Source of the DNA: Kordia sp.
GTDB lineage: Bacteria > Bacteroidota > Bacteroidia > Flavobacteriales > Flavobacteriaceae
Direction of reading: 5' to 3'
Length of the DNA stretch: 64,000 nucleotides
Assembly (NCBI RefSeq): GCF_022447245.1
Contig: NZ_JAKVBC010000023.1
Span: 1-64,000 of the forward strand
Shown here: one piece after another, positions 8,801 to 64,000 of the stretch
Position numbering within the stretch: position 1 is the first letter of the stretch
Layout of the letters: the number at the start of each line of letters is the position of its first letter
Translations under genes and position numbers: made by a program
Notes under the pieces: generated by a model
What the model saw: the letters and a program-made list of their open reading frames with translations, nothing else
Database searches by the model: none
Told to the model about the DNA's origin: nothing

Positions 8801-11800
8801 CAAACCACTTCATCCAAGTCGGTGCGATTCCATTAACGGTAAACGGAAAAGTAGATAAGAAAACACTATTACGACTAGGAAGTAACAAAGTAACCGACGA
8901 AAAAGAATACGTTGCACCACGCAATGACATTGAAAAACGCATTTCTGAAATTTGGGCGAAAAGTCTAAATGTTGAGAAGGTAAGCGTGGAAGACGACTTC
9001 TTCTTGTTGGGAGGACAAAGTTTAAAAGCAACCGCTTTAATCAGCACCTACGAACGTGAATTCCAAGTGCGTATCAGCTTGAAGCAATTGTTTGAAAATA
9101 CAACTTTAGAAGCACATTCAAAACTGATTGAAGACGGAAGAAAAGAAACATTTACCAACATTCCAACTGTATCGGAAGCAGAAAGTTACGCTATCTCAGA
9201 CGCACAGCGTAGATTATGGGTGTTGAGTCGATTTGACGGCGCTTCAGTAGCGTACAACATTCCATTCTCAATGCGATTGAACATTGAAGATGTAGCTAGT
9301 TTCAGAAAAGCGATCTTTACAGCAATTGAGCGTCACGAGATGCTGAGAACTATCTTCAAAAAAGATGCTTCGGGAGAAGTAAGACAATGGGTTGTGCCAA
9401 CGAACGAGTTGAACTTTACCATTCAAGAAGAAGATTTCAGATCACAAGACAATTCTGCGGAAGCGGTACAAAACTATATCACACAAGACGCATACAAACC
9501 ATTCGATTTAGAAAACGGACCATTACTACGCGCAAGTCTTTTACAAGTAGCCGAAGCGGAATATGTATTCTACTGCAATATGCATCACATTATCAGCGAT
9601 GGTTGGTCTATGGATGTATTGATGAAAGATGTAAATACCTATTACGAGACGTTACGCAACGGCGAAGAAGTAACGCAAGAAGCATTAAGCATTCAATACA
9701 AAGACTATGCAGCATGGCATTTAGATCAAATTGAAGGGGAAGCGTATGCAAAAGAAAGAAAATATTGGGCGAACAAATTACGCGGAACAATTCCAGCAAT
9801 CAATTTACCGTCTCAAAGACAACGTCCACAAATCAAAACCTATAACGGTAGAACCTTAAAAACTAATATCAACGCGGAGACTACGGAAGCAATTAGAGAC
9901 TTTATCGCTGAAAATGGCGGAAGTTTATTCACCTTTGCTTTGGCAGGATTCAACGCGATGATTCACAGATATACAGGCGAAAAAGATATCACGATTGGAA
10001 CGCCAGTTGCAGGAAGAAATCATGCAGACTTGCAAAACCAAATCGGATTCTATGTAAATACGTTAGCACTCAGAAATTCGGTAACTTCAGAAGAAGATTT
10101 CGAAACATTCTACAACAGAGTGAAAGTAGATACAATCGCAGATTTAGACAACCAAATGTATCCGTTTGATCGTTTGGTAGAAGACTTAGAAAGTACAATT
10201 GATACTTCGAGAAACGCCATTTTTGACATCATGTTGATTGTTCAAAACATTGGCGACATCAAGCAAGAAGTTGAATCGGTTTCTACAGCAGCAATTCAGG
10301 ATTTAGGTGTGACACGTGCAAAATTTGATTTGTCACTTACTTTAGAAGAACGCGTAGATACGATTGAAATGCACATTACATTCAATACGGATGTGTATGA
10401 GCAAAGCTTAGTAGAGCAATTTGTAATGCACTTTACAGAAATGCTTTCTGTAGTAACTACGGCTCCAAGCTTACCAATTGGAACATTTGACTTTTTACGT
10501 GAAGAAGATACTTTGCAATTAGCAGCATTCAATGAAACTGAAGTTGCATATTCAGAAGCAAACACTATTGTAGAATTATTTGCAGCGCAAGTACAAGCAA
10601 CTCCAGATAAAACAGCATTAGTATTTGAAGGAGAATCGCTTACATACAGAGAATTGGATGAAAAATCGAATCAACTGGCAAATTACATCAGAACCTTGTC
10701 ATTGGACAACAATCTGATTCCAATTTGTGTAGATCGTTCGTTGGAAATGTTGATCGGGATTTGGGCAGTTTTAAAATCAGGAAACGCGTATGTACCAATT
10801 GATCCAGCCTATCCACAAAGCAGAATCGATTACATTTTAAATGATATACAAGCAAACTACATCTTAACAAATGCAGCAAGCAATAACGTAACGCTTGAAA
10901 ATGTAGAAAGAGTAGAACTAGACAACTTTACATACAATGTATACAGCAAAGATGCAGTAAACGTTAACATAGACGAAAATACCTTAGCATATTGTATTTA
11001 CACATCAGGAACCACAGGAAATCCAAAAGGTGTATTAAATGCACACGCAGGATTGCGAAACCGTATTCTTTGGATGCGTGATGAACTCGCTGTCGATGAC
11101 AACGCTGTACTTTTACAAAAAACACCGTATGTATTTGATGTATCTGTATGGGAATTAACCATGCCATTTATTACAGGAGCTACTTTAGTTGTAGCACTTC
11201 CTGGCGGACATATGGATCCAGAATATTTACAAAATACTATTCAGGAACAAAATGTTTCTTTAGTACATTTTGTACCATCAATGTTAAACATTTTTATAGA
11301 TGTCGCAAAAGCAGAAAAATTAGCCAATCTCAATTACATTGTGTGTAGTGGAGAAGCATTATCATCCACAACCGTAGAAAAAACAAAAGCGTTGCTTCCA
11401 AACGTTCAGTTGTACAATTATTACGGACCAACGGAAGCTGCCATTGACGTTACATCTATCAACTTAACAGATATAAATACTGCTGAAGAAGGTGTAAGCA
11501 TCGGAAGACCAGTAGCAAATACACAACTATACATTGTCAATGACATGATGAATTTACAACCTGTTGGTGTTGTGGGCGAATTGCTCATTGGAGGAATTCA
11601 AGTGGCGAAAGGCTATATGAACAAGACATTGCTTACGGCAGAAAAATTCATCGAAAATCCATTTGAGGCAGAAGGAAACGTATACAAAACGGGCGATTTA
11701 GTTCGCTGGTTGCCAAATGGAACGATTGAATTTATCGGAAGAAAAGACAATCAAGTTAAAATTAGAGGAAACCGCATAGAATTGGGTGCAGTTGAAAATC

Positions 11801-58239: not shown

Positions 58240-59871
58240 ATGTTTAACATTAAACCAAAAAACATTATTTATATCGTACTGTACGCATTGCCAAATACGG
58301 TTTTAAGTTTTAGCATTGTATACATTATAAATAACGTACTCTCCGGAAATCCAGGATTTCTTCAAGCTCATATGGGGATTGTTTTTACGGCCTTAGTTGT
58401 ATATACGTATTTACTGAATATTGTATTTCAAAAATGGCTCAATAAGTTCTCATTTAACATTTTATACAGCAATGAGAAAAAAATATTCAATCAAATTTTA
58501 AAAGCGCCAATGTTAAGTTTGGAACGATTTGGACCGAAACGCTTTTTAACTGCTGTAGAAGATTTAAGAACCTTTTCAACCTTACCTTATACCGTAACGC
58601 ACACAGTAAACTCGGTATTAATGCTTGTCTTGTGTTTGGTATATATGTTTACACTTTCAGCATCTTCTGCACTAATCGTAATCGGATTAATTTTAGTTGT
58701 AGCAGCATGTTACTTTATTGTCGTAAACTCTATGTCGAAACAAGTAGCAACCTTGCGCGAATACAACGAACACTATTACCAGTACGTAGGTGATGTATTG
58801 GATGGTTTTAAAGAATTGAAAATTAGCTTCTTTAGAAGAGAAAACTTAATGAATAAGTTTTTAGCACCTAACCGTGATAAGGCTGAAGGTTTAGACTTTA
58901 AAATCAATTATATCTTCCTTTCAATCAACTTGATAAGTCAATATGGATTGTACTTTGTTATTGCAGTTATTTTGTTTGCATTACCAGCATTAAACCTGTT
59001 AGAAAGAGCCGATGTCATCTCGTATGTAGTGATTGTGATGTTTATTTCTGGACCGATCAACAATTTGATCAACTTGCAGCAAATGTATACGCGATTTATG
59101 GTAGCGAATATGCGAATTAACAATTTCTTGCGCGACTTTAAACTGCTAGACAACCACGACGAGTTACAAGAAGCACATGTAGATTCTTTTGATACCTTAA
59201 GTTTCGAGAATGTTCACTTTAACTATAGTGACGATCCTGAATCAGATTCTTTTGCTTTAGGACCAATTAACTTAGAAATTAAAAGTGGTGAAGTCGTATT
59301 TATAGTTGGAGGAAATGGTTCGGGTAAAAGTACTTTTATCAATACCTTGACGGGAATTTACACGCCATCCAAAGGACAAATACTCTTAAATGGAGAATCA
59401 GAAAATATCAAAGGGAAATTACAGAACATGATTTCTGCGGTATTTACAGACAACCACATCTTTACACACAATTACGATAATTATGTCCTTGAAGAAAATG
59501 CTATCTACAACGAATGGTTAAAAATCATGCAAATGGACAAAGTAGTGCCAGATGATTCAGATGCCTCTGTGCGACGCAACTTCTCTAAAGGACAAAGCAA
59601 GCGTATATCGCTCATATTTGCCATGTTAGAAGATAAACCATTATTGATTTTGGACGAATGGGCAGCAGATCAGGATCCACATTTCAGACGATTCTTCTAC
59701 GAGGAACTCATTCCAAAATTCAGAGAAGCAGGAAAAACAGTAGTTGCGGTAACACACGACGATGCGTATTTCCACAGTGCAGATCGTATCATCAAGTTCG
59801 ATTACGGAAGAGTAGTCAAAGATGTAAAAGTGATGAGCAAGCAAGAATTGACAGAAACCCTTTGGATATAA
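58240..59871 (+). CDS. Cyclic-peptide-type ABC exporter (SyrD/PvdE-like)
   Basis: The 543-residue protein fuses about six membrane helices (first 285 residues) to an ATPase domain: Walker A GGNGSGKST with Lys363, signature FSKGQSKR, Walker B ILDEW with Asp472 and Glu473, and an H-loop VTHDD. The LDEWAADQDP stretch, single-protein half-transporter layout and length match the cyclic-peptide exporter family that includes SyrD and PvdE. It probably moves the NRPS product from the cytoplasm to the periplasm. There is no N-terminal C39 peptidase domain, so it is not by itself a double-glycine leader-processing exporter for the small peptides encoded downstream. Confidence 0.92.
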   Translation: MFNIKPKNIIYIVLYALPNTVLSFSIVYIINNVLSGNPGFLQAHMGIVFTALVVYTYLLNIVFQKWLNKFSFNILYSNEKKIFNQILKAPMLSLERFGPKRFLTAVEDLRTFSTLPYTVTHTVNSVLMLVLCLVYMFTLSASSALIVIGLILVVAACYFIVVNSMSKQVATLREYNEHYYQYVGDVLDGFKELKISFFRRENLMNKFLAPNRDKAEGLDFKINYIFLSINLISQYGLYFVIAVILFALPALNLLERADVISYVVIVMFISGPINNLINLQQMYTRFMVANMRINNFLRDFKLLDNHDELQEAHVDSFDTLSFENVHFNYSDDPESDSFALGPINLEIKSGEVVFIVGGNGSGKSTFINTLTGIYTPSKGQILLNGESENIKGKLQNMISAVFTDNHIFTHNYDNYVLEENAIYNEWLKIMQMDKVVPDDSDASVRRNFSKGQSKRISLIFAMLEDKPLLILDEWAADQDPHFRRFFYEELIPKFREAGKTVVAVTHDDAYFHSADRIIKFDYGRVVKDVKVMSKQELTETLWI

Positions 59872-59889: not shown

Positions 59890-60666
59890 ATGAAAAAAAA
59901 TAAAAAAAGACGCATGCAAAAAAATAGAAACAAGAATGTGAAAAATCCATCAGTTCTATTTTTTAGTTTCAAAAATACGCAAGCAGCTTCACCAGAAACT
60001 GTAGCGGTAAATCCTTTTGACAAAATAGTTGTAAGCCCACACATTCAAGCGGTTTTCAAACAAGGCGATCAAGAATCGATTACAATTGAAAATCTCACCA
60101 TTGCTTCTGACAAAATGAACATCGAAGTTGAGGACAAAGTTCTCAAAGTATTTTTACAAAATGCAGAAGCAGAAGTAAATTTAGACGATGAGCAATCTAT
60201 CAAGTGGGATGACAATTCGGTGTACAAAGGAACGATCGCAAAAATTGTCATTACCTATAAAGATTTGGGCAAAATTGCACTTGTTGGAGAAGAAAAATTC
60301 ACCTTTGAAGATGCCATGCAGCAAGAAAATCTCAAAGTAAAACTCATTGGAAATACAAAAATGTTTATCCAAGAAGCAGCAATTGAAAACTTAGATATCA
60401 CTTCGTTTGGTAAAAATTACTTAGAAGTAAGTTCTGGAACCATTCCGTATCAAAATGTTACTGCTTTTGGAGAAGACGAAATCAACTTACTAGGAGTTGA
60501 AAATAAAATCACCAAAGTAAAATCTTTAGGAAATGGAAAATTAAAATTCAACGTTTCCAAAAAACTCAGTGTTACAAGTTTGGGGGACGGACTCATTCAA
60601 TACAAAGGCAGTGCAAGAGTTTCCAAAGGTTTTATGTTAGGAAAATCGAAAGTAGAAAAACTCTAA
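59890..60666 (+). CDS. GIN-domain (DUF2807) protein with Lys/Arg-rich N-terminus
   Basis: The 258-residue protein has the head-GIN (DUF2807) pattern: NPFDKIVVSPHIQAVFKQGD near residue 41, then repeated beta-strand units (ITSFGKNYLEV, VTAFGEDEI, VKSLGNGKL, VTSLGDGLI), as in a right-handed beta-helix. Family members are common in Bacteroidota and usually exported. This one lacks a usual signal peptide: it opens with about 20 mostly Lys, Arg and Asn residues and only a short PSVLFFSF. The basic opening recalls the leaders of the small peptides that follow. It starts 18 bases after the exporter, so it belongs to that operon. Function unknown. Confidence 0.75.
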   Translation: MKKNKKRRMQKNRNKNVKNPSVLFFSFKNTQAASPETVAVNPFDKIVVSPHIQAVFKQGDQESITIENLTIASDKMNIEVEDKVLKVFLQNAEAEVNLDDEQSIKWDDNSVYKGTIAKIVITYKDLGKIALVGEEKFTFEDAMQQENLKVKLIGNTKMFIQEAAIENLDITSFGKNYLEVSSGTIPYQNVTAFGEDEINLLGVENKITKVKSLGNGKLKFNVSKKLSVTSLGDGLIQYKGSARVSKGFMLGKSKVEKL

Positions 60667-60838: not shown

Positions 60839-61009
60839 ATGAAGAAAAAAACAAACCAAACGAAGTTGCGACGACGAGTCATTTCAGCCTTAAATGAAAC
60901 TCACATTTTAGGTGGACTCCAAAGAGCAACACAAAGTGATCAAGCGCTGACAGGCTGCAACACCAACTGTAGAACAGATAACTGTCAGTCAGCACAAAAA
61001 AATAAGTAG
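60839..61009 (+). CDS. GG-leader precursor peptide 1 (56 aa)
   Basis: First member of the array. It has a basic leader with VISALN in place of the usual IS-N/D-L motif, Gly25-Gly26, and a 30-residue tail with Cys40, Cys44 and Cys49 (CNTNC and CRTDNC) among Thr and Ser. The tail motif C-x-T-D-N-C is related to C-x-S-D-L-C in peptides 4, 6 and 15. Probable substrate of a post-translational modification system not present in the window. Confidence 0.75.
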   Translation: MKKKTNQTKLRRRVISALNETHILGGLQRATQSDQALTGCNTNCRTDNCQSAQKNK

Positions 61010-61032
61010 TAACAATTAAAACACAATCAATT

Positions 61033-61212
61033 ATGAAAACAAAATCATTAAAAACACTAGCACTAAAAAAAGGAACTATTTCAAATTTAGAATTGGTCAA
61101 TGGAGGCGCAGCAGGAGCTGAACAAAAAGAACAAGCAAAGGCAGGCGGTTTAAGCTTTTTTTCACAATGTGCTGAATGCATGCCGCCAACTTCATACACT
61201 ACATTGATTTAG
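61033..61212 (+). CDS. GG-leader precursor peptide 2 (59 aa)
   Basis: The leader has LALKKGTISNLE and ends NGG (Gly24-Gly25). A second GG follows at 38-39, so the mature part could start at either point: the short 20-residue tail after the second GG carries Cys46 and Cys49 (CAEC) plus five Ser/Thr. The stretch between the two GG sites is Ala/Lys/Gln-rich and resembles a spacer. Confidence 0.75.
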   Translation: MKTKSLKTLALKKGTISNLELVNGGAAGAEQKEQAKAGGLSFFSQCAECMPPTSYTTLI

Positions 61213-61257
61213 CATTTTAAACAAATCAATTATTCATTAACCAAAAAGACACCAATT

Positions 61258-61398
61258 ATGAAAAGAAAATCACTAAAGTTTCTACCATTTAGAAGAACGC
61301 GAATTTCAAACTTTCAAGGGACAGAAACTCGAGAAGCCAAAAGTTGGGGACACTCCTGTTTTACTTCATTGAAAGTTCCGATTCCATTTCACCAATAG
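61258..61398 (+). CDS. Degenerate leader-type peptide 3 (46 aa), no GG
   Basis: The first 19 residues match the family leader (KSLKF, RISNF), but the Gly-Gly is lost and only one cysteine (Cys34, in GHSCFTS) remains. It may be a decaying member or one processed differently. Spacing to its neighbours (45 and 26 bases) is normal for the array. Confidence 0.6.
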   Translation: MKRKSLKFLPFRRTRISNFQGTETREAKSWGHSCFTSLKVPIPFHQ

Positions 61399-61424
61399 CT
61401 CTTTAAAGCAATAGAAGTTTGACT

Positions 61425-61577
61425 ATGAAAAACAACACACTAATCAGATTAAGCTTCAAGAAAAGAATCATTTCAAATATAGAAAATAGCCATGACGGAT
61501 TGCAGCAAAAAGGAGGTGGTACTTCAACGCCTTTGTACTGCTATAGTGATCTGTGCGCTACGCTTTATGGAAGCTAA
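61425..61577 (+). CDS. GG-leader precursor peptide 4 (50 aa)
   Basis: The leader has LSFKKRIISNIE; Gly30-Gly31-Gly32 sits slightly later than in siblings. The 18-residue tail has TSTP and CYSDLC (Cys39, Cys44), the same C-x-S-D-L-C motif as in peptides 6 and 15. Confidence 0.75.
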   Translation: MKNNTLIRLSFKKRIISNIENSHDGLQQKGGGTSTPLYCYSDLCATLYGS

Positions 61578-61586
61578 ATCTCAAAC

Positions 61587-61745
61587 ATGGAAATCATCAA
61601 AAAAAGAAGATCAAAAACATTAAACCTGAAAAAAGGAATTATTTCAGATCTAGAGAAAATCAATGGTGGTTTAAAACCATCTAGAACAGGCGATACAGTA
61701 CTATGTGTGACTAGAGCACCATACTGTCCTGAAGATCCTGTATGA
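61587..61745 (+). CDS. GG-leader precursor peptide 5 (52 aa)
   Basis: The leader has LNLKKGIISDLEKINGG (Gly27-Gly28). The tail LKPSRTGDTVLC...C has Cys40 and Cys47. It is a close paralogue of peptide 7, sharing GGLxPxxTGDTxLC and the six-residue Cys spacing. Confidence 0.78.
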   Translation: MEIIKKRRSKTLNLKKGIISDLEKINGGLKPSRTGDTVLCVTRAPYCPEDPV

Positions 61746-61774
61746 CCAAATTAAAACTTTTAAAACCAAAAATT

Positions 61775-61942
61775 ATGAAAAAAAGGAAATCATTAAAAAA
61801 GATGCGATTGAATAAAAAGAATATTTCTCGATTGCGTAAAGTTACCGGAGGAGTAGCGAGTAATTCATGGCCTATTTGTCAGAGTGATTTGTGCCCTTCA
61901 AACTTAACCTGCAAAACTTGCGATAAGTGTGAAATAAAATAG
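61775..61942 (+). CDS. GG-leader precursor peptide 6 (55 aa, five Cys)
   Basis: I place the start at 61775, where MKKRKSLKK matches the siblings; an earlier in-frame ATG at 61742 overlaps the previous gene. The leader reads LNKKNISRLRKVTGG (Gly25-Gly26). The tail has five Cys (35, 40, 46, 49, 52), including CQSDLC and a CxxCxxC run. It is the most Cys-rich member. Confidence 0.78.
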   Translation: MKKRKSLKKMRLNKKNISRLRKVTGGVASNSWPICQSDLCPSNLTCKTCDKCEIK

Positions 61943-61972
61943 GTAAAAGTATTCATTAACAAGATATGAGAT

Positions 61973-62107
61973 ATGAAAAAAAGAAAATCAAAAGCATTAG
62001 ACTTTAAAAAAGAAATCATTTCAGATTTAAAGAAAATTAAAGGAGGCTTATTACCATTTAAAACAGGAGACACAGCGCTGTGTATGAGTACGGATACATT
62101 TTGTTAG
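61973..62107 (+). CDS. GG-leader precursor peptide 7 (44 aa)
   Basis: The leader has LDFKKEIISDLKKIKGG (Gly24-Gly25), followed by a 19-residue tail with TGDTALC and a C-terminal Cys44. It is paralogous to peptide 5 and is the shortest complete member with a core. Confidence 0.78.
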   Translation: MKKRKSKALDFKKEIISDLKKIKGGLLPFKTGDTALCMSTDTFC

Positions 62108-62148
62108 TCATCTGTAGAACCAAATTAAAACTTTTAACATAGAAGATT

Positions 62149-62331
62149 ATGAAAAAAAAATCAATTAACAAGTTCAATTTGAAAAAGGCAACTGTTTCAA
62201 ACTTTAACCAACTCAAAGGAGGCGCTTCTTCTTTAAGTAGTTGTCATGCAGGTAATTGTCAAACAATTATAAACAACACATGTATTACTTGTGAAGCAAA
62301 AGAGAAAGACCCAATTTCACCAAAATCATAA
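62149..62331 (+). CDS. GG-leader precursor peptide 8 (60 aa)
   Basis: The leader has FNLKKATVSNFNQLKGG (Gly24-Gly25). The tail is Ser-rich at its start (ASSLSSC) and has Cys32, Cys37, Cys45 and Cys48 (CHAGNC, CITC), followed by a polar Lys/Glu/Pro end. It is a good layout for thioether rings between Ser/Thr and Cys, if a lanthipeptide-type enzyme acts on it. Confidence 0.8.
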   Translation: MKKKSINKFNLKKATVSNFNQLKGGASSLSSCHAGNCQTIINNTCITCEAKEKDPISPKS

Positions 62332-62338
62332 AATAAGT

Positions 62339-62503
62339 ATGAAAAAAAATAGATCAAAAAGCAAGTTACGCTTGCGTATGGAAAACATTTCGAACATGGA
62401 AAAGGTCACAGGAGGGAAAACAACAAATGTCTCTGCAACCGTTTGCGACACCGCACTTTTTATAAGCAGATTTGATGATTGTTCTCCACCGAAAAACCCA
62501 TAA
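62339..62503 (+). CDS. GG-leader precursor peptide 9 (54 aa)
   Basis: The start is at 62339, 7 bases after peptide 8; an earlier in-frame ATG (62291) lies inside that gene. The leader has LRLRMENISNMEKVTGG (Gly25-Gly26). The tail is Thr/Ser-rich (KTTNVSATVC) with Cys36 and Cys48. Confidence 0.78.
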   Translation: MKKNRSKSKLRLRMENISNMEKVTGGKTTNVSATVCDTALFISRFDDCSPPKNP

Positions 62504-62536
62504 TCGTAAATCATTAAAAACAAAAAAATAAAAAAC

Positions 62537-62692
62537 ATGAAAACAAAATCATTTAACAAATTCAATTTTAAGAAATCAAAAATCTCAAACTTAGAAAGTA
62601 TCAAAGCAGGATTCAAATCGCCAGTAGAAAGTGCGCAATCGTACGAAGATACTACATGTGCCAGCTTTTCAGGCTGTGATACTTTCCGTTAA
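62537..62692 (+). CDS. Leader-type precursor peptide 10 (51 aa, AG site)
   Basis: The leader has FNFKKSKISNLESIK and then Ala24-Gly25 instead of Gly-Gly. The tail is Ser/Thr-rich (DTTCASFSGCDTF) with Cys41 and Cys47. Ala-Gly is still accepted by some leader peptidases. Confidence 0.72.
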   Translation: MKTKSFNKFNFKKSKISNLESIKAGFKSPVESAQSYEDTTCASFSGCDTFR

Positions 62693-62744
62693 AGGAAAAT
62701 CAGCAAGGATACACTAACAATCATTTTTTAATCTAAATCAAAAC

Positions 62745-62789
62745 GAATTCAAACTTCCTTAGACCCTTTTCTGAGGAAGTTGAGAATTC
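62745..62789 (+). terminator. Long hairpin splitting the peptide array
   Basis: AACTTCCTTAGA and TCTGAGGAAGTT pair over 12 bp (one G-U) around CCCTTT, extended by outer GAATTC arms. TTTAAAA follows. It lies between the two leader subfamilies and probably ends the first transcript, at least partly. Confidence 0.6.
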
Positions 62790-62805
62790 TTTAAAAAACA
62801 ACACA

Positions 62806-62919
62806 ATGGAAAACAACAGAAATAACAAAGATCAAAGATATAGCAGATACAATCTTCCACACAGAAATGGAAATGCTAGAAAAACAAGACAAGAACTTGA
62901 AATGAAACAACAAAAGTAA
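62806..62919 (+). CDS. Small basic ORF inside the array (37 aa), not a leader peptide
   Basis: This ATG-initiated frame encodes an Asn/Arg/Gln/Lys-rich peptide without cysteine, GG or leader motif. It follows the hairpin and has the same kind of A-rich upstream sequence as the precursor genes. It could be a real small protein or chance coding in an AT-rich stretch. Confidence 0.35.
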   Translation: MENNRNNKDQRYSRYNLPHRNGNARKTRQELEMKQQK

Positions 62920-62945
62920 CATTCAAACCATAAAAACAAGAAGTC

Positions 62946-63110
62946 ATGAAAAATAATCGAAAAAACAGTAAGAAAAACGCATTGGAACTCAACAAAAAAT
63001 CGGTGTCAAAATTCAATGTTCAAGAGGTGACTGGAGGTGTTGCAAATACACAGAATACCTGTAGAAGAAGTGTTTGTGTAACATGTCACACCATTGACTG
63101 GTCAAAATAA
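62946..63110 (+). CDS. GG-leader precursor peptide 11 (54 aa)
   Basis: First member of the second leader subfamily, with LELNKKSVSKFN and VTGG (Gly30-Gly31). The tail has NTC, Cys44 and Cys47 (CRRSVCVTC) followed by HTIDWSK. The start context TCATGAAAAA recurs in the members that follow. Confidence 0.78.
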   Translation: MKNNRKNSKKNALELNKKSVSKFNVQEVTGGVANTQNTCRRSVCVTCHTIDWSK

Positions 63111-63136
63111 ATAGTATTAATCCAAAAACTGAAATC

Positions 63137-63232
63137 ATGAAAAAAACAAGCCATAGCAAGTTGAATTTTACAAAGGCAAAGCTTGCCTACTATAAAAAAA
63201 TGAAAGACGGATTTAAACCAATCAAAAACTAG
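63137..63232 (+). CDS. Coreless leader-like peptide 12 (31 aa)
   Basis: The peptide keeps the family opening (KLNFTKAKLAYYKKMK) but has Asp24-Gly25 instead of GG and only six more residues (FKPIKN) with no Cys, Ser or Thr. It could be a leader without a core, a truncated gene, or a decoy/regulatory peptide for the modification enzymes. The next gene starts 6 bases after its stop. Confidence 0.55.
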   Translation: MKKTSHSKLNFTKAKLAYYKKMKDGFKPIKN

Positions 63233-63238
63233 AAAATC

Positions 63239-63403
63239 ATGAAGAAGAACAAAAAAAACAAATCTTTAGAACTCAATAAAAAGTCTGTATCTGATTTAAA
63301 TGAAACAGCACTCAACGGTGGACATGCGGCTGACTCTATCAGCTTTCCTATACAAGCTTGCAGTTTTCCTTTAGATGCATGTAATATTCAACGCGCTAAA
63401 TAA
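63239..63403 (+). CDS. GG-leader precursor peptide 13 (54 aa)
   Basis: The leader has SLELNKKSVSDLNETALNGG (Gly27-Gly28). The tail is less polar than in siblings, with SISFP and SFPLD segments and Cys41 and Cys48 (six residues apart). A short T-run (CCCTTTTTT) follows the stop. Confidence 0.8.
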   Translation: MKKNKKNKSLELNKKSVSDLNETALNGGHAADSISFPIQACSFPLDACNIQRAK

Positions 63404-63463
63404 TTCTAGTGCCCTTTTTTATCACAATAGATTAAAAATTAACTACCAAGAAAAATAGAAATC

Positions 63464-63631
63464 ATGAAAAACAACAAAAACTCAAAATCATTACAACTCA
63501 ACAAAAAAGCAATTTCTGATTTAAACAGAAAAGAAATCAATGGCGGACGTGCTGCTTCAAATTTCACTGCAAATCTATATCAATGTTTATCAATTAAAAC
63601 GAATTGTGTAGGATGCAATAGAACGCGATAA
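63464..63631 (+). CDS. GG-leader precursor peptide 14 (55 aa)
   Basis: The leader has SLQLNKKAISDLNRKEINGG (Gly27-Gly28), nearly the same as peptide 15. The tail has Cys41, Cys48 and Cys51 with Ser and Thr upstream of each. A strong hairpin follows the stop. Confidence 0.8.
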   Translation: MKNNKNSKSLQLNKKAISDLNRKEINGGRAASNFTANLYQCLSIKTNCVGCNRTR

Positions 63632-63633
63632 CA

Positions 63634-63658
63634 ATTCCTAAAACACTTTTTTAGGAAT
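63634..63658 (+). terminator. Hairpin after precursor peptide 14
   Basis: ATTCCTAAAA and TTTTAGGAAT form a perfect 10-bp stem with the 5-base loop CACTT, three bases after the stop; ATACATTTTC follows. It is a probable terminator or transcript end, and the longer gap before the next gene (101 bases) could hold a promoter, which I cannot define. Confidence 0.6.
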
Positions 63659-63732
63659 ATACATTTTCAAGTGTACCAATGATTCTATTGATAAAATACA
63701 CATCAAAAAATAACCATCAAAATTAGAAGATC

Positions 63733-63909
63733 ATGAAAAATAAGAAAAATTCGAAGTCCTTAGAATTGAACAAAAAATCAATATCAGAATTAAATCGTAA
63801 AGAAATCAAAGGTGGATTAGCAGCCTCGGGTTCAGATTTTGTTTGTGGAAGCGATCTCTGCAATCTCACAAAAGAAGATCCGTGTAAAGCAAAAGAGAGT
63901 CCAGCATAG
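63733..63909 (+). CDS. GG-leader precursor peptide 15 (58 aa)
   Basis: The leader has SLELNKKSISELNRKEIKGG (Gly27-Gly28). The tail has ASGSDFVCGSDLC (Cys38, Cys43) and Cys51, then a Lys/Glu-rich end. CGSDLC repeats the C-x-S-D-L-C motif of peptides 4 and 6, although those belong to the other leader subfamily. Confidence 0.8.
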   Translation: MKNKKNSKSLELNKKSISELNRKEIKGGLAASGSDFVCGSDLCNLTKEDPCKAKESPA

Positions 63910-63923
63910 ATACTAAAGGAACC

Positions 63924-63940
63924 TAGCAATTCTTTTGCTA
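63924..63940 (+). terminator. Weak hairpin after precursor peptide 15
   Basis: TAGCAA and TTGCTA pair around TTCTT, 14 bases after the stop. The stem is only 6 bp, so this is a weak candidate. Confidence 0.3.
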
Positions 63941-63984
63941 CTAAACGCACCAAAAATTAATTAACAATCAAAACTCAGAAAATC

Positions 63985-64000
63985 ATGAAAAACAAGAAAA
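63985..64000 (+). CDS. Start of a further precursor peptide, cut by the window edge
   Basis: ATG AAA AAC AAG AAA in the same AATCATGAAAAA context as the preceding members indicates that the array continues to the right. Only five codons are visible. Confidence 0.6.

Follow-up and report, generated by a model that had tools for sequence, protein, structure and literature searches.

How might a row of short peptide genes, lodged within a non-ribosomal peptide synthetase (NRPS) cluster, be processed if the enzymes are elsewhere in the genome? The locus that raises this question is in the window, which is the first 64,000 nucleotides of contig C16 (C16:1-64000) from a 5.24 Mb Kordia genome in 82 contigs. 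A tandem row of short plus-strand open reading frames (ORFs) starts at position 60839. These share a common leader while their tails vary. We consider it probable, from sequence comparisons, that the genome carries a dispersed family of class I lanthipeptide precursors, with this array as its largest cluster, in which one enzyme set would act on many substrates. The proposed enzymatic link is based on leader similarity, phyletic association, and the presence of a single copy of the dehydratase LanB.

Array members were identified with a hidden Markov model (HMM) trained on 108 leaders from other contigs and no C16 sequences. This independent model matched 15 ORFs on C16 (E<=0.0035), with 14 inside the window and one, 64238-64423, past its edge. 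The next-ranked C16 ORF had E=0.096. In a decoy control, 0 of 3803 dinucleotide-shuffled ORFs matched at E<=0.01, and 6 of 3803 at E<=1. The array ORFs within the window are listed below, with E values from the independent HMM.

60839..61009, plus strand: precursor 1, GG leader (1.2e-4; core conserved in a second Kordia)
61033..61212, plus strand: precursor 2, GG leader (4.3e-9)
61258..61398, plus strand: precursor 3, leader without GG (1.2e-5; counterpart in the second Kordia)
61425..61577, plus strand: precursor 4, ATG start at 61425 (2.2e-4)
61587..61745, plus strand: precursor 5, GG leader (1.2e-4)
61775..61942, plus strand: precursor 6, GG leader, ORF opens upstream at 61742 (4.1e-7)
61973..62107, plus strand: precursor 7, GG leader (5.5e-7)
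62149..62331, plus strand: precursor 8, GG leader (4.1e-10)
62339..62503, plus strand: precursor 9, GG leader (0.0035)
62537..62692, plus strand: precursor 10, AG replacing GG (3.3e-6; counterpart in the second Kordia)
62946..63110, plus strand: precursor 11, GG leader (1.1e-7)
63137..63232, plus strand: leader-like 31-residue ORF with a five-residue tail, recognised by sequence (no match)
63239..63403, plus strand: precursor 12, GG leader (6.5e-10; 21.3 bits with NF038153)
63464..63631, plus strand: precursor 13, GG leader (8e-8; over the NF038153 cut-off with frame neighbours; counterpart in the second Kordia)
63733..63909, plus strand: precursor 14, GG leader (7.5e-9)
63985..64000, plus strand: 16th gene, start only in the window

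A sequence-only reading of the window had described the start at 60839, the tandem layout, the common leader and the variable tails. All are borne out by the sequence and by the independent HMM. That reading counted fifteen complete genes; fourteen are recognised by the HMM, and the presumed fifteenth, 63137-63232, is probably a remnant. It also proposed a partial 16th gene. This does start at 63985, but the frame closes after 19 codons, at 64044. Hence, the 16th gene is not intact in this assembly. The description of the leader as usually ending in GG holds, with precursors 3 and 10 as exceptions. Also within the array, 62806-62919 was not matched by the independent HMM. Beyond position 64000, the array continues with 64238-64423 and then 64518-64661. 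The latter, with neither GG nor Cys, is the last ORF before an NRPS gene and has a counterpart at the equivalent place in the second Kordia. For the 14 splittable array members, mean identity is 45% in the leader and 25% in the core, which is the level of shuffled sequences. In the array's right half, hairpins that lack a T run are predicted in three stretches between genes (62693-62945, 63632-63732 and C16:64424-64517); these are possible processing or stability elements.

The leader is found far beyond C16. With NF038153, the NCBI class I lanthipeptide leader model (cut-off 22 bits), there are 101 matches in this genome at E<=1, of which 20 are above the cut-off. A profile made from the array's own leaders gives at least 115 matches at E<=0.01. 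A search of 687,624 bases with an iterated leader HMM gave 146 small ORFs that bear the leader; these are spread over 94 loci and 37 contigs. Note that the bases searched comprise 79 stretches picked for leader matches, plus C16 and the LanB locus, so that the 146 ORFs are not randomly sampled and the count is not complete. Of the loci, 62 are singletons, 25 are pairs, 5 are triplets and one has four members; the remaining locus is the window array, with 15. The array is the family's largest cluster and about a tenth of the family. This lay outside the view of the sequence-only reading, as did the sharing of the family across the genus and retention of the array slot in a second Kordia, both described below.

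Family leaders are basic, mostly 24-30 residues long, and have the consensus MKKKxLKxLxLNKxxISNLxxxxxxGG. The GG is at the expected position in 122 of 146 precursors, and 132 of 146 can be split into leader and core. Between random pairs, leaders are 47% identical (26% when shuffled) and cores 27% (26% when shuffled). No two splittable members have identical cores. Cys makes up 11.4% of core residues, compared with 0.8% in ORFs that are at least 200 residues long. Both Cys and Ser/Thr occur in 131 of 132 splittable cores, noting that the profile spans the leader only and that 14 of 146 ORFs could not be split. At one locus (L079, C1:105360-110362), five precursors are interspersed with two AraC-type regulators. 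Precursor types like these also occur at Aquimarina LanB loci, within 8 kb of LanB.

The enzymes expected for class I lanthipeptides map to a different contig. The LanB_N domain (Lant_dehydr_N, PF04738) has one match in this genome, on contig C1, where LanB is split over two genes. Beside LanB_N are LanC (PF05147, 4.3e-44), LanB_C (PF14028, 2.3e-72), an AraC/TPR regulator, HlyD and a C39-ABC exporter. The LanC, LanB_N, LanB_C, HlyD and C39-ABC assignments were confirmed with Pfam. Relatives of the C1 proteins in the PDB include NisB, a lantibiotic dehydratase, a LanC-like protein and ABC-type bacteriocin transporters. Aligned with NisB, LanB_N retains the R-x-TPFGLF stretch. The best NCBIfam match of the C1 LanC is the LanM family, below cut-off. 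Judging by its family, we take this LanB to be tRNA-dependent. It is 88-97% identical to LanB in eight Kordia records, and at most 68% identical to that of the other twelve loci compared. The Kordia records include K. algicida, K. zhangzhouensis, K. jejudonensis, K. periserrulae and K. aestuariivivens.

One of the 146 precursors, and no array member, is within 10 kb of LanB. A second LanB-adjacent precursor, C1:234598, has a weaker leader and is outside the 146. The absence of LanB and C39 from the window, claimed by the sequence-only reading, extends to the whole of C16, which has no match to either. That reading placed a single enzyme set to the right of the array or elsewhere. We reject the former, since C16 has no LanB or C39 match up to its end at 83331; the set on C1 agrees with the latter. 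Radical SAM enzymes are encoded at 18 places in this genome. Just 11 of the 146 precursors are within 10 kb of one, at four places, and we reject radical SAM as a general modifier on this basis. The three such proteins scanned (the fourth is C1:103137) are a PA0069-type, a putative DNA modification/repair type and a peptide-maturase-like protein.

Leaders and LanB are also associated across genomes. Each of eleven Kordia genomes, our own included, has exactly one LanB_N match. Leader matches at E<=0.01 range from at least 91 to at least 137 per genome, with at least 1291 in total; these are lower bounds, with 150 candidates scored in 10 of the 11 genomes. Among 149 genomes of the bacterial family, one per genus, LanB_N occurs in 15. 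A broad leader profile, containing no array sequences, matched 6 of the 149 at E<=0.001. All six bear LanB (hypergeometric p=3.6e-7, uncorrected for kinship). Leaving out our own genome, the source of the profile, all five of five do so (p=3.6e-6, likewise uncorrected). Nine of the 15 LanB genomes had no match to this profile. NF038153 scored above cut-off in 6 of 149 genomes; all have LanB, and five are common to the broad-profile matches. At E<=0.1, NF038153 matched 22 of 149, including 13 without LanB. Ten of those 13 matches are in frames of at least 249 residues, and look like chance; three are in short frames. In another genus, genome G077 combines one LanB with 13 leader matches spread over four contigs. 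Hence, scattering is not confined to Kordia. Finally, a profile of LanB-adjacent leaders from outside Kordia found 131 of the 146 precursors, 12 of the 15 array members and no decoys at E<=0.01, although this comparison is partly circular because those leaders were gathered with the Kordia leader HMM.

These results suggest that the array fits class I lanthipeptide precursors of the Bacteroidetes GG type, as the sequence-only reading had proposed. Members score near or below the NF038153 cut-off. When 10 array peptides were scanned, 5 matched at E<=1, with a best score of 21.3 bits, and precursor 63464 passed the cut-off when scanned with its frame neighbours. The same 10 peptides gave nothing useful with Pfam, and no Nif11-type leader match at E<=1 in NCBIfam or Pfam. 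The marks of Bacteroidetes class I systems found here are the LxLxK-type leader, cores with Cys and Ser/Thr, and both LanB and LanC in the genome. The clustering of precursors with enzymes, which is usual but not strictly defining for class I, is not seen.

Conservation of the array was examined in a second Kordia, G158 (stretch L157). Here, eleven genes flank the array slot in the same order and are 60-91% identical. As grounds for refutation, the sequence-only reading had named a lack of nearby enzymes and of conservation in relatives; LanB and C39 are without a match on the array's contig, but conservation is evident. The L157 slot holds 7 ORFs, five found by the leader HMM and two by eye. 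Five of the 7 have clear best counterparts, far above shuffled sequences, in array members 60839, 61258, 62537, 63464 and 64518. For instance, L157 6360-6494 scores 84 against 61258 (null maximum 40), 5890 scores 161 against 62537 (null maximum 49), and 5622 scores 132 against 63464 (null maximum 53). The remaining two match several array members alike. Comparing 60839 with L157_5250, amino acid identity in the core is 0.81, the nonsynonymous rate (dN) is 0.13 and synonymous sites are saturated. There are 7.5 nonsynonymous and 15.5 synonymous core changes, the latter on 17.3 synonymous sites. With a leader dN of 0.49, conservation is higher in the core than in the leader. We conclude that strong purifying selection acts on the 60839 core. 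Purifying selection is seen on a few cores in all. For eight pooled codon pairs, dN and the synonymous rate (dS) are 0.21 and 0.68 in leaders, and 0.25 and 0.95 in cores. Note that pairs were chosen for matching core or place, which favours conserved cores; one of our genes was used twice and two LanB-adjacent pairs were excluded.

Slot contents differ between species. In a further relative, G156 (L165), the gap between the exporter and NRPS gene homologues holds two precursors. Of nine clusters fetched with this gap in view, seven have no precursor in it. Other genes are present there in L161 and L167. Nine more stretches of G156 were fetched for their leaders, and five match slots in our genome. 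Orthologues are in place at C44:19608 and C24:22729. The slot at C7:45 kb has a partly replaced set with remnants, while those at C78:53 and C78:135 kb have different cores, with remnants at C78:135. The other four stretches share no more than one flanking gene with ours. We tried leader-anchored cassette exchange as an explanation for C78:53, C78:135 and C7:45. In the parts of the alignments covered, no conserved upstream and leader block was cleanly joined to a new core, and this candidate was rejected. Duplication, loss and remnants fit these three slots better. For the precursor genes as a whole, we infer a process of birth and death, with multiplication, diversification and decay.

Dispersed and array genes have a similar start context but seem to differ in transcription. 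Position -3 is A in 113 of 131 dispersed genes and position -12 is A in 119 of 131 (background A 0.45). In the array, each of the two positions is A in 13 of 15 members. A terminator-like hairpin with a T run is downstream of 70 of 130 dispersed genes, compared with 6 of 130 shuffled sequences and none of the 15 array genes. Hence, many dispersed precursors look like separate transcription units, and the array probably shares transcripts with the surrounding NRPS genes. The Bacteroidetes -7 promoter motif was uninformative, being present in 24 of 129 dispersed genes, compared with 17 of 129 shuffled sequences and none of the 15 array genes.

The NRPS genes lie on both sides of the array. Its left neighbours are as follows.

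58240..59871, plus strand: cyclic-peptide export ABC transporter of the NRPS cluster (TIGR01194, 324.7 bits; cut-off 286.2)
59890..60666, plus strand: DUF2807 protein, immediate left neighbour of the array (PF10988, 6.3e-25; syntenic in L157)

In L157, a homologue of the exporter (90.6% identity) is also to the left of the array. To the right, an NRPS gene starts at 64731 and encodes condensation, AMP-binding and carrier domains. The right part of C16 contains NRPS, hydrolase, CmcI-like, ATP-grasp-like and phosphopantetheinyl transferase genes. The ATP-grasp-like genes are a paralogue pair of ~460 residues each (C16:71176-72552 and 73678-75072; L009:7677-9053 and 10179-11573). The pair is present in 10 of 11 Kordia and adjoins NRPS genes in the fetched stretches. 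Three genomes have open frames of more than 900 residues for this family, which suggests fusion. Searches of the PDB with these proteins gave weak matches only. Further left, a scan of part of the large ORFs in window positions 4194-56908 showed NRPS and polyketide synthase genes, a CmlA-type hydroxylase, a class III aminotransferase and a TauD protein. Also present are a lone condensation-domain protein and an outer-membrane beta-barrel protein.

In our proposed mechanism, each precursor gene would yield a basic leader and a short core, mostly rich in Cys and Ser/Thr. The split dehydratase on C1 would bind the common leader and dehydrate Ser/Thr of any core attached to it, with LanB_N glutamylating and LanB_C eliminating. 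The neighbouring LanC would close thioether rings. Cleavage after GG, and export of the product, would fall to the C39-ABC exporter and its HlyD partner. Recognition, modification, cleavage, export and expression of the precursors are all predicted from sequence in this scheme. Our guess is that the products are a varied secreted cocktail for competition or signalling.

Several observations weigh against this scheme. Array leaders are weak with NF038153; of 10 scanned, 5 have no match at E<=1 and none exceeds the cut-off. A profile of LanB-adjacent leaders from within Kordia finds 80 of 146 precursors but just 4 of 15 array members at E<=0.01, with no decoys. This is the main sign that the array leaders are divergent, so that the C1 LanB may not recognise them. 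Across the family, 24 of 146 precursors have no GG at the expected position. In G156, five tandem GG-leader precursors (L171, C7:92500-99500) have cores almost without Cys, in contrast to other family members. Five C39 places besides that on C1 (three strong, one of these with an internal stop) could serve some precursors. Similarly, a peptide-maturase-like radical SAM/SPASM protein, 2.3 kb from precursor C8:7502, is a possible second modification enzyme for some (C8:10065-11228, L094:5064-6227; best NCBIfam match PapB, 1.7e-49, below cut-off). In addition, of LanB_N, LanB_C, LanC and LanM, our genome-wide counts cover the first.

Some of these points would suit a different explanation, which we think unlikely, where the GG leader would mainly serve export. 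The peptides would be cleaved and secreted by a C39 exporter, most would have no thioether and be bacteriocin-like or disulfide-bonded small proteins, and LanB would act on the adjacent few. Consistent with this, C39 domains occur at 6 places in our genome (4 strong), some precursors almost lack Cys, as in L171, and array leaders are distant from the Kordia LanB-adjacent leaders. Yet C39 is widespread, being found in 8 of 14 control genomes, while the broad leader profile matched LanB genomes alone. The Cys present in nearly every splittable core, and the membership of LanB-adjacent leaders from other genera in the same family (with the circularity noted above), also speak against it. A second alternative, to which we assign a small chance, is that the ATP-grasp-like pair or NRPS-cluster enzymes modify the array, with products that would be graspetide-like or joined to the NRPS product. 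The pair is in the same gene string and on the same strand as the array, and the slot holds precursors in both L157 and L165. Further, 9 of 12 aligned members of the ATP-grasp-like family match an ATP-grasp Pfam, if weakly (best 0.0011; our first member matches nothing). Against this, the pair is found in nearly all Kordia and also in clusters without precursors in the gap, most of the fetched clusters have none there, and the array's leader family is that of the dispersed genes. Slightly less probable again is a decaying graveyard of tandem duplicates, adrift without function. The early closure of the 63985 frame, the truncated 63137 ORF, members without GG, and precursor remnants at two other slots could all be read in this way. 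The selection pattern already weakens the idea; the 60839 core is strongly constrained and most L157 ORFs have counterparts. Moreover, 14 open frames carry the start context of the family. Action of one LanB/LanC/C39 set on a dispersed precursor family is the reading we favour.

Much of the setting is already in print. Bacteroidetes class I lanthipeptides have LxLxKx5L leaders, often ending in GG, and LanCs found with pinensin-family precursors resemble LanM, according to the sections consulted of Walker et al. 2020 (PMC7268733). Comparing with those sections, NF038153 and pinensin, the Kordia system shares the leader motif and GG end, the split LanB, the LanM-like LanC and the presence of a C39 protease at the locus of LanB. 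It is unlike in layout. Precursors in that work were mined in enzyme clusters whereas, in Kordia, nearly all are remote from LanB, in singletons or small groups, with 15 in an NRPS string. The scattered and tandem one-enzyme layout is described for class II. ProcM has 29 substrates and SyncM 79 putative substrates, as given in the parts consulted of PMC10783134. Prochlorosins and synechococsins resemble the Kordia system in that genes are singletons or in tandem groups of up to 16, leaders are conserved and cores vary; the Kordia gene counts would fit their pattern of one synthetase with many substrates. They differ in that these picocyanobacterial systems are class II and use a single LanM-type enzyme with leaders of the Nif11 family. 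Kordia has a class I set of three proteins, its leaders are short and basic, and each genome has more leader matches. In a survey with TrRiPP (PMC11118758), Bacteroidota genomes reach 176 predicted precursors of ribosomally synthesized and post-translationally modified peptides (RiPPs). Kordia there exemplifies high RiPP potential, with radical SAM-modified peptides and lanthipeptides. The parts consulted of that survey contain no single-LanB accounting, leader family, conserved slots or NRPS-embedded array. Nor did we find a single-LanB, genome-wide account in the passages and titles consulted from the literature on Kordia lanthipeptides, which excluded supplements and most subscription papers.

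A broader proposal, for which we consider the case evenly balanced, is that Kordia has a genus-wide class I counterpart of the prochlorosins. In eleven Kordia, one split LanB/LanC/C39 set would serve dispersed precursors, about a hundred or more of them, whose cores are unrelated. Slot contents would be partly replaced between species, and a subset would be wired into an NRPS operon so that lanthipeptides are made alongside a non-ribosomal peptide. If so, the Kordia substrate set would be, to our knowledge, the largest for lanthipeptides. One tRNA-dependent LanB with about a hundred or more natural cores would provide a ready-made test of sequence tolerance in class I; comparable substrate breadth has been described for the class II enzymes ProcM and SyncM (PMC10783134, in the parts consulted). 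The eleven genomes are a large source of natural variants of both leader and core. With one of 146 precursors near LanB, enzyme-adjacent mining would miss nearly all of those counted here. Finally, the NRPS-embedded array offers a direct test of whether ribosomal and non-ribosomal peptides are produced jointly.

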